Positions 7,734 to 24,052 of a stretch of 26,523 nucleotides of DNA are shown here, in pieces. The stretch lies in the IMG/VR virus record IMGVR_UViG_3300032116_001139, positions 1 to 26,523 of that record. One strand, 5' to 3'. A program made the translations under genes and the position numbers. The notes beneath the pieces were generated by a model that saw only the letters and a program-made list of their open reading frames with translations, was not told the DNA's origin and ran no database searches. The stretch's first letter is position 1. Each line of letters begins with the position of its first letter. The stretch is from a virus.

Positions 7734-8459
7734 TTACGGTCCTCCTGCGCCGGCTGCGGGCGCGCCGCCGGGCGGCTTATCAAAATATCCGCCCCGATAG
7801 AGGCCGTAGCCCGTAGCCGCCTGCCCAAGCGCCTGCGCCAGTGCGTTTGACTGCCCAAGATAGCCCGACGCGCGAGCCTGCCCAGCGCCCATCATCAGAT
7901 TGCCGATGTTAGAGCCCATCTGGCCGGCCTGCCCTGCGACCTGCTGTGCCGTCGCCAGACCGCCGCCGTAGAGGCTGCCGAGCGCGCCAAGGCGCGTGCC
8001 CATCAGCGCCTGTGCGCGATTAAAGGCATTCATGTACTCTTGCGAGCCCATATCTTGCCCATACCGCACACCAGCGCGGATAGCGCCGCCGCCAAGGTAT
8101 TGGCCCCGCGCCGACTGCATACGCTCCAGCGCCTTCTCACCTTCGGCCAGACGGAACGCATAGCCGGGATCGGCTTCCATTTGCGCCGCCGTAAACGGCG
8201 CGCCGATTGATCCGTAGCCGGGTGTGCCGGGCTCGCCGCCAATGCCTAACATGCGCATCAGCTCGTTCTGTGCGGCCATGCCTGATTGACGGAACGGCTC
8301 CTGAAGCTCTACCTGCCGTTCAAACGTCTCGCGCTGCAACTGCGCCGCTTGATCGGCGGCCTGCTGCTGCGCGCTGGCGGCCTTGCTGGCCCCCCGCGAC
8401 GCGACGGCACCGCCGATAACGGCACTGCCAAGGATTGCTGCTGCGGTTCCAATGGCCAT
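7734..8459 (-). CDS. DNA transfer/injection protein-like (241 aa)
   Basis: The N-terminus has a Gly/Ala-rich hydrophobic segment (about 4-24, IGTAAAILGSAVIGGAVASR), followed by a Gln-rich helix with the pattern QQQAADQAAQLQRETFERQ, then QEPFRQSGMAAQNELMRMLG. This arrangement is typical of phage proteins annotated as DNA transfer protein p32 or P22 gp7-like injection proteins, which enter the cell envelope with the genome. The rest is Gly/Ala/Gln-rich with repeated short helices, ending in a Gly/Pro tail. The ATG shares one base with the stop of the GNAT gene (TAATG). It is the first of the three presumed ejection genes. Confidence 0.72.
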   Translation of the reverse strand: MAIGTAAAILGSAVIGGAVASRGASKAASAQQQAADQAAQLQRETFERQVELQEPFRQSGMAAQNELMRMLGIGGEPGTPGYGSIGAPFTAAQMEADPGYAFRLAEGEKALERMQSARGQYLGGGAIRAGVRYGQDMGSQEYMNAFNRAQALMGTRLGALGSLYGGGLATAQQVAGQAGQMGSNIGNLMMGAGQARASGYLGQSNALAQALGQAATGYGLYRGGYFDKPPGGAPAAGAGGP

Positions 8460-8917
8460 TACGCCACCTCTCTCATATACGTGCGTTCCATAGGACGAAA
8501 CCCTTTTCGTGCATACAGGCTAGCCATCTTGCCTGCGCGGTCATCTTCAAGGGCAATCATAAAAAGTGCTGTCGCGTTTTTTGCGATTGCCCACGATTCG
8601 ATCGTATCGTACATGGCTTGACCGGCTCCTTTGCCCCGTGCTTCGGGGGTCAGCCACCACCACAACTCTTGCACTACCATATTGGTCGGGCTGAAGTACA
8701 TAGGGTAGAACAATGCGCCCGCGATGCCAATAATTTTGCCATCGTCTTCAGCCAACCAAACGCCTACCGACGGGTCGTGTATGGCGCGTAAGTAAAAGTC
8801 TGAGTAGCCGTCCACGTCAAACGGTATAACGCCGTGCATGGGGGACGCCGCATGGAACGCCTGCGCGAGTGGCAGGTAGCGCGGCAAGTCCTCAGCGATG
8901 GCGTTACGGACGATCAC
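8459..8917 (-). CDS. GNAT-family N-acetyltransferase
   Basis: A 152-aa GNAT protein. The N-terminal strand-helix MIVRNAIAEDLPRYLPLA is typical, the central strands carry IIGIAGAL and VVQELWWWLTPEARG, and motif A, which binds acetyl-CoA, is ARGKGAGQAMYDTIESWA (R-G-K-G-A-G core). The C-terminal LYARKGFRPMERTYMR matches the usual motif B end. It should acetylate an amine on a protein or small molecule. It is embedded between virion genes, starts at a GTG overlapping the stop of the upstream virion protein (GTGA) and ends one base into the next ATG, so it is expressed with late structural genes. The target is unknown; a virion or host protein is possible. Confidence 0.9.
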   Translation of the reverse strand: MIVRNAIAEDLPRYLPLAQAFHAASPMHGVIPFDVDGYSDFYLRAIHDPSVGVWLAEDDGKIIGIAGALFYPMYFSPTNMVVQELWWWLTPEARGKGAGQAMYDTIESWAIAKNATALFMIALEDDRAGKMASLYARKGFRPMERTYMREVA

Positions 8918-9257: not shown

Positions 9258-9890
9258 TTAGAACGTAAAGACCATGCGGACGCGGCCATTAGAGCCTGCG
9301 TTACCGTCAAACAATTCGCCGCCGTCGCCGCCCGCGCCCGCCGTCAACGTGCCGTCACCAGCGATTCCAGCCGCACCCGTTTGGGTGTAGAACGCACCGC
9401 CATTACCCGGCGTGTTGGTCGTATTGCCGCCCGAGGCCGTGCCGCCCGCACCTTGTTGGGCAAACTGTCCCGAGTCGCCGCCGTTGCCGGGGTTAGCGGT
9501 CATAGTGGTAATTGTAAACGTACCACTTGACACGTTAGAGAACGTGCCGGGTTCGCCGTTCGGCGAAAACCCCGTGCCGCCCGCGCCGCCGGCGCCAACA
9601 ATATAGTTGATTGTCTTGCCGGGATCGCCCCCACCAAGCACCAAAATGGTCTTGCTATACCCGCCGCCCCCGCCACCACCGCCGGGGAACACTTCGGGTT
9701 CGCCTGGCGCGATGAAGCCAAGATAACCGTAACCGCCGCCACCGCCCGCGCCCCAGACCTCAATGGTCACGCCTGTGGCGGCGACCGGGATCGTTACCGA
9801 TCCAGAACCAGGTTCGCTTGCGTCATAGACGCCCGCACCGGCCCCGCCGGTCGTGCCTATGACAAAGCCTGCTAGGGTTGCGCCGCCCAT
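9258..9890 (-). CDS. Glycine-rich (polyglycine-type) tail adhesin
   Basis: A 210-aa protein. An N-terminal segment to about residue 30 is followed by a beta strand (GVTIEVWGAGGGGGYGY, about 40-56) and a long run of Gly-rich loops (GGGGGGGY near 70, then GAGGAGGTG, GNGGDSG, GAGGTASGG, GAGGDGG) before a final strand RVRMVFTF. This matches the glycine-rich domain of phage appendages, where parallel polyglycine II helices display variable loops, as known for the S16 gp38 adhesin. It is probably a receptor-contacting tip. Its ATG shares a base with the stop of the preceding fibre gene (TAATG). Confidence 0.75.
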   Translation of the reverse strand: MGGATLAGFVIGTTGGAGAGVYDASEPGSGSVTIPVAATGVTIEVWGAGGGGGYGYLGFIAPGEPEVFPGGGGGGGGYSKTILVLGGGDPGKTINYIVGAGGAGGTGFSPNGEPGTFSNVSSGTFTITTMTANPGNGGDSGQFAQQGAGGTASGGNTTNTPGNGGAFYTQTGAAGIAGDGTLTAGAGGDGGELFDGNAGSNGRVRMVFTF

Positions 9891-10690
9891 TAGGTCAAGC
9901 CTGCTCCACTAATCAGCCAAGAGGTCGCGCCGATCTTAATACAAGTTGCCACACCGTTCTGGGCCAATGTCCGCGTGCCGGTCGTCGTGCTGTTCACAAG
10001 CGTCAGCGTGTCCGACGTAATGGCAATCGAGAGCGCGCTCGCGTTGACGTTGATTACGACAAACACCGTACCGACCGGGAACGGAACCGACGCGTTGGCC
10101 GGGATCGTTAGCGTGACGCTGCTGCCGTTCATTAGAATCGACTTGCCCGCATCCGAAGCAATTAGCGTGTAGTTGGTCGTTTTACTGTTTTGCGGGGCGT
10201 CCCGGTAGCCCGCCGGGTAGTTGGTGTTGGACGGCGCGTTATCGGGAATTAAGACGTTGCCCGTAAACGTCGGGTTGTTAATCGGCGCAAACTTGGCGTC
10301 GGAGGCTACTTTGGTGTACGCGTCCGTGATGCCGTAGCCCGACAGCGTGTCCGGCGTGCCGGCGATGTCGGCCCATTCAATACCCTGCACGCTGAAGTCG
10401 TTGACGCCCGACACGTCGTCATACGTGCCGATCGTGACGTTTGCGGAGGTTTGAAGGACGAACTTATAGGACACGCCCTGCGACAGCCAAATTGGCTGCG
10501 CTGTGCGGCCTGCCGCGTTAAGGACAATCGGGTTCGTGTTTGGCGTCGCGCCGGATGAACTCGTATACGTCGCCTGCGGCGTAGTCGTACCCGCTGCATA
10601 CGTGTAGAGCTTGCCGCCCGACAGGATGTTGCCGTTATTGTCGAAAAACTGCGCCCCGACACCGGCAAATGGAGAAAGAAATACGCTCAT
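9890..10690 (-). CDS. Tail fibre with podophage head-binding-type N-terminus
   Basis: A 266-aa protein with three parts. Residues 1-95 (FLSPFAGVGAQFFDNNGNILSGGKLYTYAAGT and on) form a domain widespread at the start of podophage fibres and functionally comparable to virion-anchoring domains. A short fibre section follows, with TPDTLSGYGITDAYTK and NNPTFTGNV (about 110-145). The C-terminal domain (about 165-266) has the pattern TLIASDAGKSI, then TIPANASVPFPVGTVF and a final WLISGAGL, common at the ends of phage fibres. ATG 10690 overlaps the upstream stop (ATGA). It likely anchors or extends the adhesin genes downstream. Confidence 0.78.
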   Translation of the reverse strand: MSVFLSPFAGVGAQFFDNNGNILSGGKLYTYAAGTTTPQATYTSSSGATPNTNPIVLNAAGRTAQPIWLSQGVSYKFVLQTSANVTIGTYDDVSGVNDFSVQGIEWADIAGTPDTLSGYGITDAYTKVASDAKFAPINNPTFTGNVLIPDNAPSNTNYPAGYRDAPQNSKTTNYTLIASDAGKSILMNGSSVTLTIPANASVPFPVGTVFVVINVNASALSIAITSDTLTLVNSTTTGTRTLAQNGVATCIKIGATSWLISGAGLT

Positions 10691-11391
10691 ACGTACACCT
10701 GCATAACGGTCAATATGATGGATGGAATTGCTGGCACCGGGGAAACCGCCGCAAAATGCTGCAACTGCACGCTAAGATCGTCAACGGAAAAATATAACTG
10801 AAAATAGTCGCCGTTGGATAGCGGCAAGAAATAGTTTGCAGCCGAGAATATTTCGGCGTTGTTGCCTTGAATCTGAATTAACGAGGCCGAGTTAGCGACA
10901 GCCGTGCCGTTGATAGCCGGCCAAATATAAAACTTACCCGTGCCGCCCGAAGTCTTGTCCACCTGAATGGAAAACTGCACGTTGTAGATGGCGGGCCGCG
11001 AGACTTTGATTTTGCTGTTGTCCGCTGGATCACGGTAGACGCCATACGCCGTGTCGGCGTTGTTGTACGTGATAGCTGTGGCCGTGTTAATCGTCGTCGC
11101 TGCTTGCGTCTGCGTTGAGAAAAACGACCCAAAATTTACCACATTCGGTTCGGGATACCGGGGCATCAGTTTAAGCGCCTGTATCTCCGACTCCAGCACC
11201 GGCACGGCATCTTCTACCGTAGCCGCCAACGCCGGGGTCAGCTCAAGGTCCGCCGTCGTGATCTGCGTTGTGCCGCTGCCTGTCAGCGTGAATTGGTTGT
11301 TGAGAAACCTAAACCATTCGCGCGAAATGAGGCCCGTCCGCTCGTCAATGAACGGTACGCGAGGCGCCGGGATGTTAGTGATGTTAGGCAC
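10687..11391 (-). CDS. Tail protein with C1q/TNF-like beta domain
   Basis: A 234-aa protein. The N-terminus (MPNITNIPAPRVPFIDERTG, then LISREWFRFLNNQF) is a conserved virion-attachment segment in podophage genomes. A linker to about residue 95 leads to a C-terminal jelly-roll-like domain (about 98-234): FSTQTQAATTINTATAITYN, later YNVQFSIQVDKTSGG, NGDYFQLYFSVDD and a final strand of hydrophobic residues, resembling trimeric C1q-like phage domains. The start is GTG, lying within the last codons of the gp10-like gene (8-base overlap). A role as tail knob or receptor-binding trimer is inferred. Confidence 0.72.
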   Translation of the reverse strand: MPNITNIPAPRVPFIDERTGLISREWFRFLNNQFTLTGSGTTQITTADLELTPALAATVEDAVPVLESEIQALKLMPRYPEPNVVNFGSFFSTQTQAATTINTATAITYNNADTAYGVYRDPADNSKIKVSRPAIYNVQFSIQVDKTSGGTGKFYIWPAINGTAVANSASLIQIQGNNAEIFSAANYFLPLSNGDYFQLYFSVDDLSVQLQHFAAVSPVPAIPSIILTVMQVYV

Positions 11392-12901
11392 TGGTTCCCG
11401 CTATCCTAAGTTCAGCGCCCATAATCGCCGTCACCATTGGATCGGCGGCAGATACTTCGTATACGCGATCGCGCGACTTGAGTGTTGCGCCAAGCCGACG
11501 CCAAATTACGCGGGTTTGCGTCGCGCCGATGGGGCCAAGCGATTCCCACCGCTCGTTGCTCCACGTATGGCCGCCGTCGTCTGACCAGCGCAACATGACT
11601 TGCGGGTTAACAACACTATTGTTGGGCTCACCTTCGACAACGATGTTGCCGAGGTCTTGCTGCAAGATGTACCCCGGCGCTTGTTGCTCAAGAAAGCCTG
11701 GGTCATCGTACAAGCCGCCCACACCCGTCTGACAGTCAAGCTGCAACTGGTGGTGGATGGTACGAGTCAAATTGTTTGCGCCGGTCGGCAGCGCGCGCCA
11801 CGTACGCAGCCATTTCTGTAGCTGCGTATCGTCGCGGAAATACCGCAAGTCAAACTCATAGAGCCGGCCATCCTCAAAGTCGCCGAGGATTGGCTTGCCC
11901 TTGAACCGAGCATGGCAGTTTGACCGATGCCGGCGGAACTCGCCTTTTTCAAACGCGGCGCGTTCATGCCACGCGCCCGTCGCAGCGTCATACACCCATG
12001 TGGTGTTGGCCGTGGGGAAAATCAGCACGTAAAAGGCGTGGCCGTCCTGCTGGTACGTGTACGCCACAGCGTCGGACATATCCGTGTAGTTTTGGATGGC
12101 GAACTCAACCGCATGGGTTGAGACGCGCACGCCTTGATAGCCTTGTGCGCGGTACACGACACCCTGACCACGCGCATCAGCACCAAGCCAGAATACGCTG
12201 TTATCAAGCTTGGCAACCGAGTACGGCGCGATGCAGCCGATTTCGTTGTACGCGCCTTGGATGCGCGTCAGCGGGAAGTCAGGATCGCCCGAGTTGTACC
12301 AGACTTCAACGGAGTTGGTGCCAAACAGCCACGCCTCACGGTGATCGACAATAATAGACACCAGCCCGTCCGGCGAGCCTTCTGCCGACGCGAAATCAAG
12401 CGGGTCGATCGACAGGCCGTTTAACAGTGCCGTCACCCACACGCGCTGGCTGTTCGGCTCGTTGAACACAAAATAGCCGTCTAAGTAACCTACGGTCACT
12501 GCGCCGGGAAAGTCAGGATCGGTGATCTGCGCAAAGGCGTTCGTATTGTTGTTGTAGATGTAGCCGTTGGGGTTACACGCTACAAATATCTGCGTGCCGT
12601 TATCGGCCATGGACACCGCGCCGTTACCCGTAATATCGCCGAGTTTGGTGATGTTTAGGTTTTCATCGACCTTATAAAACTCTTGGCCAGACGCGACAAA
12701 CAGCGACCCGTTAAGCGGGTACAGCCCACGAATAGGCCCGCTGCCTACCTCCATAAACCGTCGCATACCGGGGCAACGCTGAAGATACGCCGGCTCTTTG
12801 CCCGCTTCGGGTATGACCTCGGGGTACAAATTGACCAGCCGAGCGTCGGCGGCGTTTACGCTGCGTGCAACGTAAGACGATCCGAGAATCGGCGTCTTCA
12901 T
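11384..12901 (-). CDS. Packaged DNA stabilisation protein, P22 gp10-like
   Basis: A 505-aa protein matching the P22 gp10 tail-hub family, which closes the portal channel and forms the hub to which tailspikes attach. The N-terminus (MKTPILGSSYVARSVNAA, then RLVNLYPEVIPEAGKEPAYL) is the usual opening, followed by propeller-like beta repeats (GSLFVASGQEFYKVDE, DNGTQIFVACNPNGYIYN, DGYFVFNEPNSQRVWVTAL, DNSVFWLGADARGQGVVYRA). Length is close to the 472 aa of P22 gp10. It directly follows the gp4-like gene with a one-base overlap (TAATG), the same order as in P22. The assignment is well supported by family pattern and context. Confidence 0.87.
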   Translation of the reverse strand: MKTPILGSSYVARSVNAADARLVNLYPEVIPEAGKEPAYLQRCPGMRRFMEVGSGPIRGLYPLNGSLFVASGQEFYKVDENLNITKLGDITGNGAVSMADNGTQIFVACNPNGYIYNNNTNAFAQITDPDFPGAVTVGYLDGYFVFNEPNSQRVWVTALLNGLSIDPLDFASAEGSPDGLVSIIVDHREAWLFGTNSVEVWYNSGDPDFPLTRIQGAYNEIGCIAPYSVAKLDNSVFWLGADARGQGVVYRAQGYQGVRVSTHAVEFAIQNYTDMSDAVAYTYQQDGHAFYVLIFPTANTTWVYDAATGAWHERAAFEKGEFRRHRSNCHARFKGKPILGDFEDGRLYEFDLRYFRDDTQLQKWLRTWRALPTGANNLTRTIHHQLQLDCQTGVGGLYDDPGFLEQQAPGYILQQDLGNIVVEGEPNNSVVNPQVMLRWSDDGGHTWSNERWESLGPIGATQTRVIWRRLGATLKSRDRVYEVSAADPMVTAIMGAELRIAGTSA

Positions 12902-14711: not shown

Positions 14712-15923
14712 TTAGCCCCAGATGCGGCAGGCCATCTGCGGACGGATCACCGAGTAGCCATACAGCACGTCGATACGGCAGGGCATACGGTCGTTGTTGA
14801 TGTCGTACTGACGGACAACGCGCATGGAGATGCCGTTGTGGACCTGACGCGACGCCATGTCAACACCCTGCGGGAGCAAGAGGTCGGCGGTGGCAAACGT
14901 GATCGCGTCCTTGTGGTACACAAGGTTCTGAGCGTACTGGCCAGAAGCGGCACCCACGTAGGTCACGACATCGCCGGCGGTCGGCAACTTGCTGACCGTG
15001 GCGAGGGCGTGCGTCGGGCCGTAGACCGCCGGCAGGAACTCAACGTCAACGAACTCGGTCGAGGCCGAGGTCACGCTGTTCTGCACGACGAACTGCTGGA
15101 GCGCGCCAGTGGACTCGCGGGTCTGCGGGTTGACCGCATACACGCCAGCGATGGTGAACACGTCGCCGGGGACGAGCGTAAGGCCGTCGGTCACGTTGTC
15201 GAGCGTCAGCTTCGTCGCACCGTTGGCGAGCGTGGTCTTGACGATCGGGGTGTCCGCGCGCGAGGCCGAGCCGTTGGTGTGCTGCTTGATCGACTGAGAC
15301 ATGTTGATCTCGTCGTAGCCGAGGATGCCTTCGCCCATCATGCCGTTCTTGAACTGGCGGCTGATCGAATCAACCGGGTTGAACAAGCCCTTCATGCCTT
15401 CGACGAGGCCGGCGTTGGCAGCCGGGTTGACGGTGGCGTAGCGCGGGGCCATGCCAGCGGCAGCTTCGTTCAGCTTCTGCTGCGCCTGCAACAGAACGAG
15501 CGAGGTGCCGGGGGTGACGCCAGGCGTACCGACCGACTGGAACACGTTCTTGTACGAGTTGGCCACATCAGCGTCGATGCTGGAGGCGAGCTGGCTGATA
15601 CGCGGCTTGAGCACGCGCTCGGCGAAGTCGTCCAACTGGAGAGCCATTTCGGCGCTGGTGAAGTTGACGCCAATGTGCTTCTGCGAGGCGACGGTGAGCG
15701 TGGTGAACTGCTCGTTGTCGTCCTGAACCTGAAGCGCAGCGCCGTCGGTCACAAGAGCGCGATCCGGCAGACGGATGCGGAGGGTCGAACCAATCTTGGC
15801 ACCTTCGACAGCGAAGCTGTCGTCGTACTGACGGTTCACGTTACGGGTGATTACGAGGTTGTTCTCCAGGATTTCCAGAGCCTTCCGCGTAATCATGTCA
15901 ATAGTGAGAAGTGTATTAGCCAC
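14712..15923 (-). CDS. Major capsid protein, P22 gp5 coat-like
   Basis: A 403-aa protein of the P22 coat family (HK97 fold). Recognisable stretches are the N-terminal MANTLLTIDMITRKALEILE, RQYDDSFAVEGAKIGSTLRI, FTSAEMALQLDDFAERVLKP, a central beta domain (about 215-320, including TLVPGDVFTIAGVYAVNPQT) at the place of the P22 insertion domain, and a C-terminal HNGISMRVVRQYDINNDRMP followed by CRIDVLYGYSVIRPQMACRI. Length is close to the 430 aa of P22 gp5. The start is GTG at 15923, with GGAG 7 bases upstream and no better ATG. It follows the scaffold gene and a promoter upstream of it. Confidence 0.93.
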   Translation of the reverse strand: MANTLLTIDMITRKALEILENNLVITRNVNRQYDDSFAVEGAKIGSTLRIRLPDRALVTDGAALQVQDDNEQFTTLTVASQKHIGVNFTSAEMALQLDDFAERVLKPRISQLASSIDADVANSYKNVFQSVGTPGVTPGTSLVLLQAQQKLNEAAAGMAPRYATVNPAANAGLVEGMKGLFNPVDSISRQFKNGMMGEGILGYDEINMSQSIKQHTNGSASRADTPIVKTTLANGATKLTLDNVTDGLTLVPGDVFTIAGVYAVNPQTRESTGALQQFVVQNSVTSASTEFVDVEFLPAVYGPTHALATVSKLPTAGDVVTYVGAASGQYAQNLVYHKDAITFATADLLLPQGVDMASRQVHNGISMRVVRQYDINNDRMPCRIDVLYGYSVIRPQMACRIWG

Positions 15924-15944: not shown

Positions 15945-16721
15945 TTAGCGGTTACGTCGCGCTTCCCACTGTTTAATCTGTCTCAGGCGCTCGGCTTCGA
16001 TCCACTCCGACGTGCTCATGTCCTTGACTGAGCGTGGGTCCGTCGTGTCTCGGGCCGGCGCGCCTACGGTTTTAGCCGTCACAGGCTTAATCGGCGGGGG
16101 CGCGTTGGTTGTTCGTTTGACCGGCGGATTGTCGGTCAACTTGACCTCAATCTTACCGATCTCCTTGGCTTGCAGGTAGGGCGACAGGCGGGAAATACGT
16201 TCAGCTTCACGGGGGTTGGAACCTAAGTAGTATGCTACGTCGGGGCCAACTTCTGAAGCCTGAATCGTCTCGGCCATTACGTTCGTGATTGGCAAGGCTT
16301 TGTTGTACACGACTTGTTCAAAGTCGTCGTACTTGTCAAAGGCCGCTTCCTCACGTTCCTTATAGGCCATCAACAGCTCGCGCTGCTGCCGGTCTGCCTC
16401 CCGTTTGGCCAGCAACTCCTCGGCTTTGCGGGTTGCCAAAGCATCCGCGTAAGCGTCGGGGTCAATGTCCCGGTCAGGCAGCGTGGCGGGCGTCTGAGCT
16501 TGGGACTCAGGCGCTTTTAGCGCTTGCTCTCGTTCCCACTTGCGACGTTCCCGTGCAAGTCGTTTGCCTACTAGCGCGTCGAGCTCCTCTTGGGAGAACG
16601 TCTTAGCAGGCTTTTCTTCCGGCTTTTCGGCCTCTTGGGCCACTACTTCGGGTTCCGGTGCTGCCGTAGCTGCCGGTTCCGGCGCGGGTACTTGCTCCGC
16701 TACTACTTCGTTTTCAGACAT
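15945..16721 (-). CDS. Scaffolding protein
   Basis: A 258-aa highly charged protein without hydrophobic core segments, the usual composition of phage scaffolds. The first 40 residues are Glu/Pro/Ala-rich, followed by helical regions (FSQEELDALVGKRLARERRK, about 42-61; TRKAEELLAKREADRQQREL, about 96-115) and a basic C-terminal tail (IEAERLRQIKQWEARRNR), which in P22 is where scaffold contacts coat. It lies directly upstream of the coat gene, as expected. AGGA precedes the ATG by about 7 bases, and the gene is first behind the promoter at 16767-16794. It acts as an internal guide for procapsid assembly. Confidence 0.85.
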   Translation of the reverse strand: MSENEVVAEQVPAPEPAATAAPEPEVVAQEAEKPEEKPAKTFSQEELDALVGKRLARERRKWEREQALKAPESQAQTPATLPDRDIDPDAYADALATRKAEELLAKREADRQQRELLMAYKEREEAAFDKYDDFEQVVYNKALPITNVMAETIQASEVGPDVAYYLGSNPREAERISRLSPYLQAKEIGKIEVKLTDNPPVKRTTNAPPPIKPVTAKTVGAPARDTTDPRSVKDMSTSEWIEAERLRQIKQWEARRNR

Positions 16722-16740
16722 TTTGATTCCTTACGAATCC

Positions 16741-16757
16741 CTGGTGAACCGCACCAG
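16741..16757 (-). promoter_or_regulatory. Stem-loop in the 5' UTR of the scaffold/capsid transcript
   Basis: CTGGTG and CACCAG form a 6-bp inverted repeat around a 5-base loop. It lies about 10 bases downstream of the -10 box and 20 bases before the scaffold start codon, so it would be at or just after the transcription start. A 5' stem-loop could protect the abundant capsid mRNA; an operator for a dimeric repressor is an alternative. Confidence 0.6.
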
Positions 16758-16766
16758 TACGGGTAA

Positions 16767-16794
16767 ATCATAGTTTGTTGCGTAAAAGAGTCAA
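16767..16794 (-). promoter_or_regulatory. Strong sigma70-like promoter for the scaffold/capsid genes
   Basis: On the minus strand TTGACT (16794-16789) is followed by a 16-base spacer and TATGAT (16772-16767), each one mismatch from consensus. It lies in the 76-base gap between the tailspike stop (16798) and the scaffold start (16721), one of the few gaps in the late operon. The -35 is embedded in AATGCTTGAC, shared with the early promoter near position 114. It would use host RNA polymerase and raise capsid expression above the upstream packaging genes. Confidence 0.75.
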
Positions 16795-16797
16795 GCA

Positions 16798-18630
16798 TTA
16801 GCCCATAAATGCCAGCGTAGCAACTCTGTATGAGCCAAGACGGTTTTTGACGTTTACCTTTCCGTCCGCAAACCAGACATTAAACTTGCCGTCAACATCG
16901 GGATTTGACCCTGTAGTGGATACCTCAAACAAGTCGCCGCTTGCTGCCGCAAGTTTGTGGATCTGATTACTTCCGCAAGCAAAAAGCCCTTGGGTAGTGT
17001 ATTCAAAGTCTACACTTATCGTAAACAAACCTCGGCTTGCAAAATAAAAACGCGGAGCAAACGCGTACGATGCGTCATCATCCAATCCTTGGGACTGGAC
17101 AGACACAGCGCCGCCAAGATTCAAATCGGTAAGCGCAGCGCCAGCAAGCAAAGGCGCTTTGTTGTTAGAAGTTGTTGTATAGGAATTGGTAAATCCTTGG
17201 TTTAACCCGCCAAGTAACGCGCCACCGTAAGTGGTGCCGGCGCCGGTTGTTGTAGTGACAAACGGCTTAACATTAGCCGGAGTTGCTACGCCATCAATGT
17301 TCATCACATTTGTGGCGACAATATCATAGTTCGTATCCGTGCCGTTTGTACCAACAGCAGAATAGACAAGGCTTGGCACAACGACGTTATCTAGTCGAAC
17401 CGTACCATAAGCGCCCGCAGCAAAGCCTGTGGTTACGATCCACTTGACGGGGTTTTTATTTACCGAAACATTGCTAATAGAAATCAGCGGTTTAGTGGGA
17501 ACGCCAATACCGGCGGAGGCCACCGTCGCGCTGACAACTTGGTCTATGACGTGGGTTCCCGTAGTTACGCCGGGGTCAATAGAGTTGAATACTTGTAGCC
17601 CGTTAACCATCGAGCTTGCTGAATCTTCGCTGTAGTCGGCTGAATGGTAAAAACTGACCAGCGCTAATCCAGTTTGAATCGGGGATTTTGCGCCGCCGTC
17701 GTACCCACGATAGAAGAACTGGCAGTTGGATACCATGCCAACGCCATACTGGAAGTTAATTTCCGTACTACCGCCATAGATTGTAGACCCATCATCACGA
17801 ATAATGGTCTCATCGCGGACGGAACCCACGGCTTGAACTTTTATGGCTCGCCCAGCGCAGTTGCGAAAGACGTTGCCGTATGAAGTTAGTGTAGAGTCAA
17901 CATATTGCCCAGAAATAGTCGTTGGATCGGGGCCAAAAAACTTAAATGCGTCAAAATCAACGTTGTTTGGCGAGCTAACGGCATCGTCGCCAAAAATAGC
18001 GGCGTATTGGTTGCCGTAGTGCATACACTCTCGAACGTACTGAGTGCTGCTGTACTGCGATACGGCAATACCCGTTGTTCCCGTTGATCCCGGCGACCCA
18101 GTACCCGCCGCGCGGGTAATTAGCCTAACTCTGTTGTTTGCTATTGTTACTAATTGAAACGAGCCAGATACGTTAACGGCTTCGTTGTATATGCCCGTAA
18201 CATTCATCCTAAAACGAATAAAAACATTGTTAGAGATTGTGCAATTCGGAAGAGTGTTAACGCTTGGCGTTGCTGTATTGTAAATGGCTAAACCGGCAGC
18301 AATTTTGCTATTGCCATCAAACGTCAAACCGTCAACTGTCAACGAATTGTTATTAACTTCAATTCGTATTAAATAGTTTTGATTGTTAGTCGCTCCGGTA
18401 TAGATAAAAGTACCGTGGCCGTACAATGTCACATTTGTAGGAATCGTTGCCGTCACGTTGGACGACAGCGCATACGTTCCAGGCGGTATGTAAACGTATT
18501 GCGCACCAGACTCTAAAGCGTTTTTAAGCGCCGTAGCGTTGTTGGTCGCTCCGTCTGCTACCGCACCAAAATCGAGGATGTTGGCTTGAGAGCCATCAAT
18601 CATCGAGTATGTGACTTTGGTAAGTGCCAT
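16798..18630 (-). CDS. Tailspike with pectate-lyase-type beta-helix (610 aa)
   Basis: After a short N-terminus (MALTKVTYSMIDGSQANI) the beta-helix entry motif ILDFGAVADGATNNATALKN (18-37) marks the pectate_lyase_3/glycoside-type domain found in phage tailspikes that bind or cut surface polysaccharide. Repeated short beta rungs continue to about residue 440 (for example TISNNVFIRF, NVFRNCAGRAIKV, NCQFFYRGYDGG). The C-terminal 150 residues form a separate domain. There is no virion-anchor domain of its own, so it may attach through a neighbouring fibre. The region is AT-rich compared with the capsid genes. The start follows the upstream stop by two bases and has no obvious ribosome site, suggesting coupled translation. 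Enzyme specificity cannot be read from the sequence. Confidence 0.8.
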   Translation of the reverse strand: MALTKVTYSMIDGSQANILDFGAVADGATNNATALKNALESGAQYVYIPPGTYALSSNVTATIPTNVTLYGHGTFIYTGATNNQNYLIRIEVNNNSLTVDGLTFDGNSKIAAGLAIYNTATPSVNTLPNCTISNNVFIRFRMNVTGIYNEAVNVSGSFQLVTIANNRVRLITRAAGTGSPGSTGTTGIAVSQYSSTQYVRECMHYGNQYAAIFGDDAVSSPNNVDFDAFKFFGPDPTTISGQYVDSTLTSYGNVFRNCAGRAIKVQAVGSVRDETIIRDDGSTIYGGSTEINFQYGVGMVSNCQFFYRGYDGGAKSPIQTGLALVSFYHSADYSEDSASSMVNGLQVFNSIDPGVTTGTHVIDQVVSATVASAGIGVPTKPLISISNVSVNKNPVKWIVTTGFAAGAYGTVRLDNVVVPSLVYSAVGTNGTDTNYDIVATNVMNIDGVATPANVKPFVTTTTGAGTTYGGALLGGLNQGFTNSYTTTSNNKAPLLAGAALTDLNLGGAVSVQSQGLDDDASYAFAPRFYFASRGLFTISVDFEYTTQGLFACGSNQIHKLAAASGDLFEVSTTGSNPDVDGKFNVWFADGKVNVKNRLGSYRVATLAFMG

Positions 18631-18632
18631 AG

Positions 18633-19394
18633 TTAAACAATATAAATAACTGTAAAGTTAATGCCTGCGGTGGCTGTAATTGCGGTCATACAATAAATTT
18701 GAGTATTGTATGCAAGGCAAGTAGAACTTTGATTGACATTTCCAACTGTTACAGCACCAGACCCAACAGTGCCTACCGTAATTGGCAAGTTAGTTGTGAT
18801 AGCTCCAGCTGCGGCACACGCGACACTTGTTGCGCCAATAACTTCACCACTTGCGATGACCAAGCGCCCAATACGCGAGTATTTTCCGTTCGAAGAAAAC
18901 GCTCCAACAACCGTGAGTCCTGGGCCTTGGTTTGGCGTCCAAGTGCCTTCTTCGTACCAGTTAAGCAGCTGGCTCGTCATGCCAGCCGCAGGGGTGTTTT
19001 CAGAAAAACTAACGCCTTTGGCGGCAGTTCCAACTATAAAATTGCCCAAGTTATTTTTAACATTACCTGATGAGTCAATTCGCACATGCTCAACAGCGTT
19101 TGAAATAAACTGCAACGAGTTATTGCTGTGATCGTATTTAACTCGGCCAGCAAGCCCCGCGTCTGAGTCAACAAAGTTTAAAAAGCCGGTTTCACCAGCA
19201 AGTGACTGTACGATTGAAATGCCGCCATTGTCTGCGACACTAGCGGTGATAGGGCCGGTAGCGACGGATCGCCCAGCTGTCACGTTGGCTATTGAAACTT
19301 TGACGGTGCTACCACCTTGCACGATGGGCAGAACTTCCGTTCCGGCAAGCGGCGTGGTCGCGCCAGTTAACTGTGAGATTTTTTTGTCAGCCAT
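18633..19394 (-). CDS. Tail fibre protein with YEEGTWTP-type C-terminus (253 aa)
   Basis: The N-terminus MADKKISQLTGATTPLAGTE, then LPIVQGGSTVKVSIANV (to about 37), is an adaptor segment shared in pattern with the neighbouring 544-aa spike. The middle has repeated beta fibre features (SLQFISNAVEHVRIDSSGNV). The C-terminal domain starts near residue 145 with LLNWYEEGTWTPNQG, followed by GKYSRIGRLVIASGEV, a motif set recurrent at the ends of phage tail fibres. A role as a fibre or adaptor joining the two spikes is inferred. AGGAAGG lies about 10 bases upstream of its ATG. Confidence 0.78.
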   Translation of the reverse strand: MADKKISQLTGATTPLAGTEVLPIVQGGSTVKVSIANVTAGRSVATGPITASVADNGGISIVQSLAGETGFLNFVDSDAGLAGRVKYDHSNNSLQFISNAVEHVRIDSSGNVKNNLGNFIVGTAAKGVSFSENTPAAGMTSQLLNWYEEGTWTPNQGPGLTVVGAFSSNGKYSRIGRLVIASGEVIGATSVACAAAGAITTNLPITVGTVGSGAVTVGNVNQSSTCLAYNTQIYCMTAITATAGINFTVIYIV

Positions 19395-19413
19395 GATGGT
19401 TTAACCTTCCTAA

Positions 19414-21048
19414 TTAGGTGTCAGTCACAATTGTTTTGACTGTGCCGTCGCCAAACTTAACTTTCAAATCGCCATCGGCGGAGTCTACATAAATTTGCGC
19501 CCAACCCGCCGCAGTTGAAGGTGCGCTTACGCCGTCAGCAACGGCTAAACTAGTTAACTTACGCTGATATTGCGTCTCGTCAGTAATAACTGTGCTACTA
19601 CCAATATACACATCCATTCTATTTTTTAATTCGCTTTTACGCGTGTAACCAATAGAAGATGTGGACAGTTGAACCGGAATGTCTACAACGCATCCGGCGG
19701 GCGCATCCGCAGTATCGGCGGCATGGAACAACACGGGTTGATGCCCTGATGTTCCCCATTGGCCGTCCCACAAACCGCCTGTTAACCTAAAGTTATAAAC
19801 GTTTCTATTGCGATCCGCGCCGGTAGTTGTGGCATTTGCGTAGTCCAACGCTCGACCAACTCGGAAGCCATCGTAAGTAATAGCTTCCATGTATGGATCA
19901 ATTACATCAATATCGCGGACGCCGGAGCCGCTGCCGTCTAGCGGGTCAATGACCATCCCGACATCGTTGCCTTCAAAATTGCATCGAACAAACGTCTGCC
20001 CGTAAATCGTTTGTGAAGCGTTCTTCGGCTGGATAACGACGCCATATCGGCCTTCCTTAAACGAACAGCCGACCCATGCCGAACAGGTAATGTCCGCAAC
20101 AAGTTGTAAGCCAACGTAGCAGTTGTCGGAAAGAATGGACACTGCGCTTATCGGAAAGCAAAAATCAGCTTTGTATCCAACATAAAAGTTGAACACAGTG
20201 ATATTTTGAAGCGTTAAGTTGATGGCGTAGTTAAAAAAGATTCCTACTAGCGTATGCGGCGGAGTGCTTGTAGGCGTGATTGACCCTAAAGATGGGCCAA
20301 TCAAACTCAAACCCTGCATGGCAAAACGCGATTTTTCCTCAAACAACCCGACGCCCGATCCGAACGTAATCATATTGCCGGTCGTCAACGCGGTGTTTGA
20401 AAAATCAATTGTCGCGCAGTCGCCAACAATGGCGTGAAAATGGTTGTTGGAGAAATAACTAACCGTGAAATTTAACGCGCTGTCGCAACGGTAAACGCCT
20501 TTCGGAAAGAAAAGCGTGCCGTTTGCTGACTTAATTGAATCCCAAGCCGCCTGAATGGCCGCAGTATCATCATTAACGCCATCGCCAAGTGCGCCGAAGT
20601 CTTTGACGCTAACAATGTCGCGCTCTTTTGACTGTACGGTACGCGTAGCTGCGCCAATTCCCGCCTGCGTAAACAAAATGTTCGATGCGTTAGCGTTAAT
20701 CGTGCTGACGGTTTGAACCGTTGAAAACTTAACTACCGCGCCGACGTGCAACCCTTGCGAGAACGTGACCGTATTGTTGTCCGTTTCGGTGTAGGCCGAT
20801 CCTTCGTACTGATTGACGCCATCAACAAACACCATCAGGTTGTTAGCGCCCGCAGCGTAGGTCATCGTCGTCAGATTGAAGACCGTCTGACCGGCAGTCG
20901 CGGTTTGGACTTCTTCAAACCCAACGTAGGTCTGAATGTCCGACGCGTACGCCTTCTTCGTTACGTTGTCCTGAACGACAACGAACAGATCGGTGCCTTC
21001 GACCGGCGAGTCTACAAGCGGAAGGTCTGAAATCTTAACGATTGCCAT
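19414..21048 (-). CDS. Tailspike with virion-anchor and pectate-lyase-type beta-helix (544 aa)
   Basis: Three regions are visible. Residues 1-42 (VKISDLPLVDSPVEGTDLFV and following) resemble an adaptor also present in the next fibre. Residues 45-115 (TATAGQTVFNLTTMTYAAGA, then NLMVFVDGVNQYEGSAYTE) form a small beta domain common in podophage tail fibres. The beta-helix starts with DFGALGDGVNDDTAAIQAAW (150-169), the classic pectate_lyase_3 entry, and runs to about 440. The last 45 residues (GWAQIYVDSADGDLKVKFGD) form a conserved trimer-end motif. It likely recognises or degrades a surface polysaccharide of the host. It follows the small 54-aa gene by three bases. Confidence 0.87.
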   Translation of the reverse strand: MAIVKISDLPLVDSPVEGTDLFVVVQDNVTKKAYASDIQTYVGFEEVQTATAGQTVFNLTTMTYAAGANNLMVFVDGVNQYEGSAYTETDNNTVTFSQGLHVGAVVKFSTVQTVSTINANASNILFTQAGIGAATRTVQSKERDIVSVKDFGALGDGVNDDTAAIQAAWDSIKSANGTLFFPKGVYRCDSALNFTVSYFSNNHFHAIVGDCATIDFSNTALTTGNMITFGSGVGLFEEKSRFAMQGLSLIGPSLGSITPTSTPPHTLVGIFFNYAINLTLQNITVFNFYVGYKADFCFPISAVSILSDNCYVGLQLVADITCSAWVGCSFKEGRYGVVIQPKNASQTIYGQTFVRCNFEGNDVGMVIDPLDGSGSGVRDIDVIDPYMEAITYDGFRVGRALDYANATTTGADRNRNVYNFRLTGGLWDGQWGTSGHQPVLFHAADTADAPAGCVVDIPVQLSTSSIGYTRKSELKNRMDVYIGSSTVITDETQYQRKLTSLAVADGVSAPSTAAGWAQIYVDSADGDLKVKFGDGTVKTIVTDT

Positions 21049-21051
21049 TCA

Positions 21052-21216
21052 TCACTCCAGCAGCAGTTGGCCGCCGTCTTCCTGCACCAAGTTGTCGCCT
21101 GCTTCAGTCAGCAAGTTGCCGACTGAGGCACCACTGTCGCGGGTGCCTGAAAACAACGTAGCCACGGCTCCAAGGCCGATGGCTACGCCGTTTCGCAGTG
21201 CGACTCCCCAACTCAT
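21052..21216 (-). CDS. Small 54-aa virion-region protein with N-terminal hydrophobic segment
   Basis: A short gene recovered by direct translation from ATG 21216: MSWGVALRNGVAIGLGAVAT then LFSGTRDSGASVGNLLTEAG and a Gln/Asp/Gly/Leu-rich tail. Residues about 5-23 are hydrophobic and could be membrane-inserting. The tail repeats a turn pattern (LLTEAGDNLVQEDGGQLLLE) that looks like short beta hairpins, a pattern also seen in other phage structural proteins. Its ATG overlaps the stop of the upstream gene by four bases (ATGA), and the next ATG is three bases after its TGA. Function unknown. Confidence 0.72.
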   Translation of the reverse strand: MSWGVALRNGVAIGLGAVATLFSGTRDSGASVGNLLTEAGDNLVQEDGGQLLLE

Positions 21217-21515
21217 CGAATGTTAATCGGCTTTGCGTACACGTCGCCGCTATCAGCAACGCGAATCGCACTTACTCGCCAGGGCGCGCCAGTGCCTTGC
21301 GGCACAATGAACGGAATCGGCGTAAACGCCGGAATCGGGGTGCTGGAGGTCGTTGCCGTCACGCCCTCGCCCACAACGATGTATGCCGGGGTCGTGGACC
21401 ACACCACCACGCCCTGCGGGCCGGCTTGCCACGTCGCAGTTGAGCCCGCCGTTCCCGTGTACGATACCGTACGACCGGGATATACGGCATCGGCCATCGG
21501 ATTAAGAAGTTCCAT
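21213..21515 (-). CDS. Hypothetical virion-region protein, beta-rich (100 aa)
   Basis: A Thr/Pro/Val-rich, predicted all-beta protein (MELLNPMADAVYPGRTVSYT, later WQAGPQGVVVWSTTPAYIVV and a final strand). No catalytic motif, signal peptide or membrane segment is seen. GAGGA lies about 6 bases upstream of the ATG at 21515. It sits between the helical-bundle gene and the tailspike cassette, so a small structural role such as tail or fibre attachment is possible. I do not recognise the family. Confidence 0.72.
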   Translation of the reverse strand: MELLNPMADAVYPGRTVSYTGTAGSTATWQAGPQGVVVWSTTPAYIVVGEGVTATTSSTPIPAFTPIPFIVPQGTGAPWRVSAIRVADSGDVYAKPINIR

Positions 21516-21524
21516 GCTTTATCC

Positions 21525-21887
21525 TCACGCTAAGAAGCGCAGCTTATACAAAGTGCTCAAGTAAAGAGCCACAATTTCGTCAATAATGTTCTGAATTGCA
21601 GAGTCATCTTCGTCGCAAAACTTGTAGCGATTCGCTTCAATTTCGGCCAAAGACTCCTGCAAAAACTCAATGACGTTGCCGTTTTTCTTGGCCGATTGCA
21701 ACGTAATTGGGCCGATCAAGCCATGACGGCCCTGATAGGCTTCCGCAAACGTATCTGCCAAGTCGATGATACCGTCGTAAAATGCCCCCAGCGCCTGATG
21801 CTTGGCATAGCTACGCGTATTGAGATGCACTGAATGGGTGACATCTCGCGCTAGGAATAAGTGCCCGACAAAATCTGCTGGTTTCAT
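21525..21887 (-). CDS. DUF5856-like helical-bundle (ferritin/Dps-like) protein
   Basis: A 120-aa, mainly helical protein with features I recall from the phage DUF5856 group: HSVHLNTRSYAKHQALGAFY (about 18-37), DLADTFAEAYQGRHGL (about 42-57) and the C-terminal DEIVALYLSTLYKLRFLA. The spacing of His, Asp and Glu residues in helical segments recalls four-helix ferritin-like bundles, though a full metal site cannot be confirmed from sequence. It follows the portal with a four-base ATGA overlap and is therefore a late protein. A virion-associated or DNA-protecting role is only inference; the family assignment is moderately sure. Confidence 0.7.
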   Translation of the reverse strand: MKPADFVGHLFLARDVTHSVHLNTRSYAKHQALGAFYDGIIDLADTFAEAYQGRHGLIGPITLQSAKKNGNVIEFLQESLAEIEANRYKFCDEDDSAIQNIIDEIVALYLSTLYKLRFLA

Positions 21888-24052
21888 TGCGGCGGTAACT
21901 CCGTGCCCATTTCAGGCATTGTCCGTTGGGCGGTCGGTGGCACAAGCTCGCCACTTGACATCATACCGGCCAAAGTGCCCATTATGATGTCCTGAATCTG
22001 CTGCTCATTCAAGCCGCTTTCGACTGCCTTGATGCGATCGGTCTCGGCTTGATACGCCTTGACCTCCGCCTCAAACTCCTTGATCTGCACTTCGCGGGCT
22101 TCCATTGACTGCTGCACGCGGCGGAGCATGTCCTGCATCATCTGCATTTCCTGCGCCATAACCTGCATCTGCTGGTTGGCCGCCTGAAGCGCCGGGTCTT
22201 CCTCGTCCGCCAAGAGCTTCGGATCAATGACCTTCTGGAGCCGCTTGGCGATCTCTTGGGCGCCCGGCCAGTCCATGTTCTTGACAAACAGATCGCCTGC
22301 GACCTGCCACAAGTTCGGGTTGGCCTGCAAAATTTGCCCCATGGCGTCCATGGCTTCCTGACGCTTGGTCGCGTAGGACGGGCCGGTCGTGACCGCCACG
22401 TCGTACTTACCGACCGACGGGTTGTAAATCTTCTCGATCACGATGCCCGCCTCGTCCATCACCCGACGGACAGGCTCGGCCTGCATCGGGTTGATCTTGA
22501 CCGTTGCGGTCTCTCCGTCAATGCCGATGATTCGGGCGATACGCTGGGTATCGTAAATCTTCGGAATCAAGTCAACGAGTTGGCGCGTCCCATAGCGAAT
22601 GGCCCGAGCTAGGTTATCTACAAAGTGGTATGTGCCTGTGTCGCCTTGCCGTTCACGCGCCAAAATGGCCCGACCCGTGCGCTCATTGGACCGCATACCG
22701 AGGCTGGCATCGTACTGGCCGGTCGCGGCCTTGATGTCGTCGGCAGCGCCCATCTTCGCCTGGATCAAGCCCGTCTGGGCGAGCGGCGGCGGGGCACGTT
22801 GTGGCAGCGGCAGGACTGCGCCCTGACCGTCTGTCACGTCGGGATTAACTTCTAAGTACGGCCAGTTCGTTGTATTGGCCGTCTTCCATTGCTGTTCGTA
22901 GCCTTCAAACTGACCGCCGTAGCCGATAAACGGCGCCTTGGGCGCGAGGGCCAGCATCTCTGCTTCCTGCGATACCCAGTAGTTGTACATGCGCTGGGCG
23001 TCCTTGGCGTTGCGCACCAAGCCCGACACGTACATACGACCTTCAACTTCAAACTCGTTACCGATTACACGGATGACCGGAATCCATTTGCCCGGCCATT
23101 CGCTTTCTTCAAGGATTTCGTAGCCGTTGGTCTTCAGCCATTTGACGCGTTTTACGTCAACTTCGCGCTTGCGGATCGGCTGAAGGCCGAGCATTTCCAA
23201 CTCTTGCGCTTCGGGCGACCCTTCAAACGCCGTTTGGTTGCCGGCGTAGAGATTCAGCGTCTCGCGCGTGTGTTCCTTGTAGAAATACTCCGCAATACGG
23301 ACCGTATTCTCGTTAATCCACTGCGATAACGCTTGATCGCCCACACCACGCTGCAAAACCGACGAAATCGGCTCTGCGTTGGGGTACATACGCTCAAAAT
23401 CCGCCTTCGGAATGTCCTCGGTGATGAAGCACCACTCCGCATCCGCACCACAAGGGTCTTGGATGGTCGGGTCCATGTACACACTGAAGCTATTTCGGAT
23501 GCGGCCTATGCGAAGGTCTTGATCGAACGTGTTTTCGTCGCAGTATTCCGTCAAAATGCGGAAATACCCTTCGCCGTAGGTGACTTGGTTGTCACAAGCG
23601 GTGTCGTACGCGACATCCGCATCCGAAATGTACTCAATATGACGGACAATTCCGTCAAATATCTCAGCGACCTCAACGTCCGCCTTGTCATCGACCGGGA
23701 TGACCTTGCCAGAAGGCCGATTTTGACGCTGATCGTTGGTCACTTGCCGCACATGCTGCGGCAGCTTGTTGATCGTTAGGCACGGACGCGCGTTGACCGT
23801 CTGTCCTTGCACCGAGCCGCGCGTCGCCAACACGTCTTGGGGCCACTGCCACTGATTGTCCGGCGATCCTGCCATGAAACGCAGGTCATCCAGCTCGTCT
23901 TCTCGGCTGTCAGAGTACGCCGAGAGGGCCATTGTGAGGCGCGAGCGCGCCGTGGCCAGTACATCGGCTGGGTCGCGGGAGGCTTTGCCCCGGTTGGTCG
24001 GCGTGTTGGCGACGCGAGCGGCGCCTCTAAGCCCTGTAGGGTCTTTAGCCAT
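21884..24052 (-). CDS. Portal protein, P22 gp1-like
   Basis: A 722-aa portal of the P22 type (P22 gp1 is 725 aa), forming the dodecameric channel for DNA packaging and ejection. Typical stretches include the N-terminal RSRLTMALSAYSDSREDELD, the segment QHVRQVTNDQRQNRPSGKVI, CDNQVTYGEGYFRILTEYCD, SFSVYMDPTIQDPCGADAEW and GQYDASLGMRSNERTGRAIL. The C-terminal 120 residues are a long coiled coil (QQMQVMAQEMQMMQDMLRRV, then EFEAEVKAYQAETDRIKAVE), comparable with the P22 barrel helices. The ATG shares one base with the stop of the preceding 46-aa gene (TAATG). The assignment is well supported. Confidence 0.92.
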   Translation of the reverse strand: MAKDPTGLRGAARVANTPTNRGKASRDPADVLATARSRLTMALSAYSDSREDELDDLRFMAGSPDNQWQWPQDVLATRGSVQGQTVNARPCLTINKLPQHVRQVTNDQRQNRPSGKVIPVDDKADVEVAEIFDGIVRHIEYISDADVAYDTACDNQVTYGEGYFRILTEYCDENTFDQDLRIGRIRNSFSVYMDPTIQDPCGADAEWCFITEDIPKADFERMYPNAEPISSVLQRGVGDQALSQWINENTVRIAEYFYKEHTRETLNLYAGNQTAFEGSPEAQELEMLGLQPIRKREVDVKRVKWLKTNGYEILEESEWPGKWIPVIRVIGNEFEVEGRMYVSGLVRNAKDAQRMYNYWVSQEAEMLALAPKAPFIGYGGQFEGYEQQWKTANTTNWPYLEVNPDVTDGQGAVLPLPQRAPPPLAQTGLIQAKMGAADDIKAATGQYDASLGMRSNERTGRAILARERQGDTGTYHFVDNLARAIRYGTRQLVDLIPKIYDTQRIARIIGIDGETATVKINPMQAEPVRRVMDEAGIVIEKIYNPSVGKYDVAVTTGPSYATKRQEAMDAMGQILQANPNLWQVAGDLFVKNMDWPGAQEIAKRLQKVIDPKLLADEEDPALQAANQQMQVMAQEMQMMQDMLRRVQQSMEAREVQIKEFEAEVKAYQAETDRIKAVESGLNEQQIQDIIMGTLAGMMSSGELVPPTAQRTMPEMGTELPPQ

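Follow-up and report, generated by a model that had tools for sequence, protein, structure and literature searches.

A probable exchangeable three-slot receptor-binding cassette in the head operon of a P22-like podophage

Gene content and base composition of the block

The window, i.e. the whole 26.5-kb viral record that was analysed, carries a P22-type head operon on its minus strand, in the order terL, a DUF6321 gene, portal, two small genes, a first tailspike (TSP1), a fibre, a second tailspike (TSP2), scaffold and coat; past the coat gene follow gp4- and gp10-like genes, a second adhesin group and ejection-like genes. Portal, scaffold, coat and the gp4- and gp10-like genes were all found in the order of a P22-type head/tail module, and the phage is a freshwater P22-like podophage. 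This head gene order is common to the window, phage DSL-LC05 (proposed Luchaoviridae, OR003940, PMC10611076) and P22, the insert apart; in P22 the gap between portal and scaffold is 14 bp and holds nothing inserted. The genes of the region are:

21884–24052, minus strand: P22-type portal, left flank (Pfam PF16510, E 9e-180)
21525–21887, minus strand: small DUF5856-like gene, conserved flank (Pfam PF19174, E 2.8e-22)
21213–21515, minus strand: 100-aa gene, function unassigned, kept in the close clade and missing from others
19414–21048, minus strand: TSP1 (Pfam Pect-lyase_RHGA_epim, PF12708, E 4.5e-13, above the curated cut-off)
18633–19394, minus strand: fibre, slot B, N-terminus MADKKISQL, with a PHROG of unknown function as its sole match
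16798–18630, minus strand: TSP2 (PF12708, E 1.5e-9, above the curated cut-off)
15945–16721, minus strand: scaffold protein, right flank (PHROG 8865 head scaffolding, E 3.8e-29)
14712–15923, minus strand: P22-type coat protein (Pfam PF11651, E 2.7e-36)

The preliminary description of this DNA had placed two beta-helix spikes and a fibre among head genes, and the Pfam matches, with the portal side on one flank and scaffold and coat on the other, bear this out; TSP1 and TSP2 both have the pectate-lyase-like domain of beta-helix tailspikes. An AlphaFold2 model of TSP2 was rough (pLDDT 68.7) and, when compared to the PDB with Foldseek, matched the phage tailspikes P1, Phi92 and HK620 at E 1e-6 to 1e-5, with TM-scores of only 0.2–0.4, while the TSP1 model, built from a 3-sequence alignment, reached a pLDDT of 32.6. 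An agarase-like assignment of the fibre was set aside, as the PDB sequence search gave a marginal agarase match alone. Elsewhere in the window, a GNAT-like acetyltransferase gene, named from its sequence, lies at 8459–8917 between the second adhesin group and the ejection-like genes, and one relative (L085) carries a tandem pair of gp4-like genes at 10640–12146, which match the window gp4 at 31% and 73%.

Base composition sets the block apart. Earlier hand counts of G/C (21 of 60 bases at 18301–18360, 41 of 60 at 15001–15060) proved exact, and the shift that they indicated was confirmed: the GC content of the block is 0.484, and no equal-length, non-overlapping stretch at lower window coordinates falls below 0.563. 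GC3 is 0.475 inside the block compared to 0.728 outside, with a change-point log-likelihood ratio of 101 (block shuffles reach at most 22.8). The break lies at TSP1 codons 98–131, i.e. within the first cassette gene; TSP1 codons 1–145 have a GC3 of 0.63–0.66, like core genes, and the TSP1 body one of 0.50. At the other end, the best-fitting low-GC3 segment extends 75 codons into the scaffold gene, and composition alone therefore fails to mark the right edge.

Low GC and GC3 would fit the recent arrival, in one event, of AT-rich foreign DNA (a moron-like insertion, as opposed to a standing, repeatedly exchanged cassette), as would the narrow P22 gap and the mere 330 bp or so found at the cassette position in three relatives (L057, L073 and L081). 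However, most relatives with a cassette of the A-B-C type (see below) show an equal GC drop with different alleles (0.08–0.13 in L004, L006, L045, L070, L076 and L082), the slot order recurs across the family, and one type of TSP1 N-terminus is common to different bodies at 59–88% identity. We therefore dropped low GC as proof of recent import, because it is common to most alleles in relatives; it is a general mark of spike alleles of the A-B-C cassette type. A single acquisition is refuted as the sole explanation and is very improbable for the block as it stands; at most, it could account for how the slot itself arose.

Allele exchange between close relatives

The relatives compared were 80 IMG/VR records found via the portal, and more found via the spikes; all are metagenomic contigs, in which misassembly might mimic single cases but not identical breakpoints across many contigs. 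Portals are 91–100% identical among close relatives, and one record (L084) is the same phage as the window (99.93%). The stretch from the DUF5856 gene to the scaffold gene spans 326 to 7130 bp among relatives, and the block is absent from L051, L057, L073 and L081. In L102 and L103, terL, portal, scaffold and coat are 99–100% amino acid-identical to the window where sequenced, with nucleotide identities of 95.8% from terL into TSP1 (L102/L103) and 98.1% from the TSP2 stop codon into coat (L103). Their spike bodies are unrelated to those of the window, and all that can be aligned between the flanks is two short islands in the fibre (19270–19397 and 18932–19046). Unlike spikes despite alike flanks were also found in L089, L091, L097, L004, L105 and L006. 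The parts of the two spikes concerned are:

20614–21048, minus strand: putative docking part of TSP1, comprising a KIS-type N-terminus (codons 1–44) and a neck (codons 45–145), kept while bodies change
20545–20613, minus strand: left exchange point at the beta-helix start VSVKDFGALGDGVNDDTAAIQAA (codons 146–168), where nucleotide homology ends
19414–20544, minus strand: exchangeable beta-helix body of TSP1, with an unrelated body in near-identical phages
18563–18632, minus strand: short N-terminal peptide and beta-helix start of TSP2 (MALTKVTYSMIDGSQANILDFGA), a DNA island in L097

On the left, homology ends at 20545–20554, inside TSP1 at the DFGALGDGVNDDTAAIQAA motif, in L102, L103, L089, L004, L094, L091 and L097, and at other TSP1 points in L105 (20597) and L006 (21020); the first 168 TSP1 codons are the conserved side, and the GC3 break in TSP1 lies close to this end of homology. 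On the right, it restarts at 16794–16801, the TSP2 stop codon, wherever that side was sequenced. The swappable module of the preliminary description thus stands as regards exchange, with near-identical phages carrying different spikes, but not as regards its start, which is at about 20550 inside TSP1 and not at the start codon. Nor is it one unit, as the three genes swap separately: L086 retains TSP1 (94%) and carries other fibre and TSP2 bodies, and the slots therefore exchange independently.

The synteny comparison proposed at the outset showed the block replaced or absent while the flanks were conserved, and equal divergence of spikes and flanks, which had been named as the finding that would speak against a module, clearly did not hold (flanks 96–98% nucleotide-identical, bodies unrelated). 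A model in which selection drives orthologous spikes apart by fast point mutation, with no exchange at all, draws its sole support from the expectation that spikes evolve fast. It is extremely improbable in view of the abrupt breakpoints, which leave almost nothing alignable between two flanks of 96–98% identity, and of the same bodies found on different adaptors (see below). In the sequences compared, the block has the marks of a modular receptor-binding cassette, i.e. a conserved N-terminus and a C-terminus exchanged between close relatives.

The right edge and the scaffold leader RNA

TSP2 and scaffold are separated by a 76-bp spacer that starts at the homology boundary. The features at this edge are:

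16767–16794, minus strand: promoter-like site TTGACT-16-TATGAT, right edge of the swap unit
16719–16766, minus strand: putative scaffold leader RNA ending in ATG, with a pseudoknot and a ribosome-site hairpin proposed from covariation
16760–16762 with 16749–16751 and 16754–16757 with 16741–16744, minus strand: leader pseudoknot
16735–16739 with 16725–16729, minus strand: leader ribosome-site hairpin

A promoter just after the cassette had been counted towards the module. The site is present, and the close clade retains its -35 hexamer, but the site was dropped as a part of the cassette because it sits on the conserved scaffold side. Promoter-like matches in the region are no commoner than chance (4 found vs 6.2 expected).

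Mutual information, computed with no structure given from a MAFFT alignment of 74 leaders, ranked the Watson-Crick pairs of the proposed helices at the top. In the named pseudoknot, 9/9 pairs changed on both sides (61 cells in all), and pairing was kept in 97.1% of cells compared to 80.9% when shuffled and 30–44% when slid, a slid control that leans towards the structure because the pseudoknot was read from the same sequences. Support for the leader RNA is covariation, not stability, and nested minimum-energy folding was unexceptional (z -0.87). A covariance model located the element at the scaffold start in the full records searched, one per genome, and almost all phages of the window's family have the leader ahead of their scaffold gene; in G006, the element occurs a second time, at the contig end, ahead of a fragment of 27 residues that shares the scaffold start. 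Outside these phages, the leader was found beside the scaffold-like gene on a Rhizorhabdus contig (E 7.6e-5), with a weak match in Cupriavidus (E 0.003); the covariance model had no match in P22, VvAW1 or P26218. Searched against Rfam 15, the window has no match at gathering level and no relevant one at E up to 5, and our literature search found nothing, among the papers listed, on scaffold autoregulation in P22 or on a phage scaffold-leader pseudoknot. The leader RNA is apparently undescribed and is the most novel item that we saw.

Scaffold synthesis in P22 is self-limiting, and its adjustment in P22-type phages is an old question. We give an even chance to the reading that an undescribed cis-acting leader RNA fixes the right edge of the cassette and, as a candidate operator of scaffold translation, would part the head operon from the swapped spikes. 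The candidate regulator may be the scaffold protein or another head protein. If the leader is a feedback site, it would open this old question to direct testing. As a separate observation, a 769-kb contig of Rhizorhabdus histidinilytica UM2 (NZ_FUYM01000001.1) holds a portal 69% identical to that of the window together with the leader RNA, and may represent a prophage-like relative in a cultured host.

Slots, shared bodies and the single head-binding domain

The slot order A-B-C recurs across the full records, although not all of them have three slots and the N-terminal patterns used for slot classes miss some members. Slot A is a spike with a KIS-type adaptor or a tailspike head-binding domain (TSP1 in the window), slot B starts MADKKISxL or similar (the fibre) and slot C starts MxLTKxxxxMI (TSP2); where a record has a slot-C spike, slot B almost always separates it from the A spike. 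The similarity of the TSP1 and fibre N-termini pointed out earlier is there: by eye, about 13 of 38 residues are identical. The TSP1 N-terminus is 59–88% identical over residues 1–104 to 1–284 in those relatives whose bodies differ, and the neck is common to head-binding-domain spikes at about 50–59%. The N-terminal peptide and the DFGA motif are conserved across 47 distinct slot-C proteins, in which identity is about 0.1 beyond residue 40; the class was picked by its N-terminal pattern, towards which conservation at those positions leans. Such a short conserved N-terminal peptide on a secondary spike is one feature of an anchor-branch arrangement, and in TSP2 we infer that it is the slot-C docking peptide.

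Bodies are also shared across slots. The TSP1 body (146–544) is 73% identical to residues 16–414 of the L087/L088 slot-C spike, which has a short peptide, and the TSP2 body (17–610) is 74% identical to residues 61–655 of the L085 slot-A spike, which has a long adaptor. Both joins fall at the DFGA motif of the beta-helix start, and by sequence comparison the same body is present on different predicted anchors in L085 and L087/L088.

The element that may hold these spikes lies outside the block:

9890–10690, minus strand: short fibre with a tailspike head-binding domain (residues 1–100; PDB 9vyg and 7eeq, E 6e-10 and 2e-9)

This domain, located after gp10, is the only one of the window phage. 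The second adhesin group had been treated as separate from the block; it is a distinct locus, but not a separate business, as it holds this domain. Exactly one head-binding domain was found in 29 of 31 records (E up to 0.001), and none in L130 (no recognisable portal or gp10) and L162 (portal 28% identical); all genomes tested with window-type head genes carry a single copy. Six-frame translations of 28 records, scanned with a profile, likewise gave one head-binding-domain ORF each. Its address changes: it is in the cassette in 13 records (L045, L053, L070, L076, L082, L088 and others), after gp10 in the window and 14 more (one of these, with no sequenced portal, was assigned from its scaffold and gp10 genes), and in two distant records between scaffold and gp10. 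Mapped on the portal tree, these addresses require 4 changes, with at least 3 demanded by well-supported branches. In some cassettes, the domain forms a naked protein of 163–170 aa, which is followed by B and C.

That the number stays constant while the place changes suggests one common anchor, a role that the single head-binding domain would fill; no description of this arrangement was found in the accessible parts of the literature on known systems. An alternative explanation, possible if somewhat doubtful, is that TSP1, fibre and TSP2 attach independently to the tail, with no branched complex on the head-binding-domain protein. The slot-A spike of the window clade has its own KIS-type N-terminus, the head-binding domain is on another protein 8 kb away, and the Pfam and PHROG matches of the cassette proteins include no T4 gp10-like branching domain, all of which agree with independent attachment; however, genomes keep one head-binding domain despite its changes of address, and the naked proteins followed by B and C suggest a common anchor.

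The block is very probably an exchangeable three-slot receptor-binding cassette of a P22-type podophage. Each slot would hold its own N-terminal docking part and draw its C-terminal part from a common pool, probably through recombination at conserved stretches (the beta-helix start motif, gene starts and the spacer after TSP2); the homologous-exchange route is proposed by analogy with known tailspike systems. The complex is probably held on the tail by the single head-binding domain, which in the window is on the 9890–10690 protein. A swap would alter the surface polysaccharide bound or degraded by the virion, and presumably its host range, with head assembly untouched. Portal relatives fall mostly in metagenome bins of both beta- and gammaproteobacteria, and we therefore claim no host.

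Swapping of receptor modules is already known in Kuttervirus and Klebsiella phages. The Kuttervirus work (PMC8432352) describes receptor modules common to several tailspike types, with a conserved motif as the proposed exchange site; similar to the window, Kuttervirus and other Ackermannviridae have several tailspikes with slot-specific N-termini and pooled receptor modules. They differ in having four-spike clusters with recognised XD domains, whereas the window belongs to a podophage whose three slots lie in the head operon, whose motif sits where the beta-helix starts and whose single head-binding domain varies in genomic address. In Klebsiella podophages KP32 and KP34 (PMC6872550), the anchor is on the first protein, further ones have a short conserved N-terminal peptide, and the depolymerase part is horizontally transferred; the window shares the short peptide on secondary spikes and the transferred body part, but has another peptide, another genome position and no detected T4 gp10-like branching domain. 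For E. coli phages, PMC10408124 reports conserved DNA before and after the exchanged receptor domain as proposed recombination hotspots. Conserved DNA also flanks the exchanged domain in the window, where, however, the motif occurs at the start of the beta-helix and, on the right, the boundary coincides with the promoter-like site and the scaffold leader RNA. DSL-LC05 shares with the window its head genes (portal 74%), its tailspike genes between portal and scaffold and its scaffold leader RNA, and differs in that the head-binding domain is a naked 170-aa protein in the cassette; no discussion of the cassette was found in the accessible part of the paper on that phage.

Overall, an actively exchanged receptor-binding cassette of a known kind is real in this little-studied family, and what is new is its three-slot podophage variant. 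The relatives amount to sharply bounded natural experiments, with alike flanking head genes and different spikes, in which spike, receptor and host could be linked once hosts are known, and the occurrence of one head-binding domain at two genomic addresses predicts a common anchor.

A further observation concerns the second adhesin group, which contains a glycine-rich protein at 9258–9890. Cassette genes of L009, L013 and L025 start with a stretch like GTWTAPAGVTSVEY, which by eye is maybe akin to this protein, and the glycine-rich stretch is possibly another domain that moves between the second adhesin group and the cassette.
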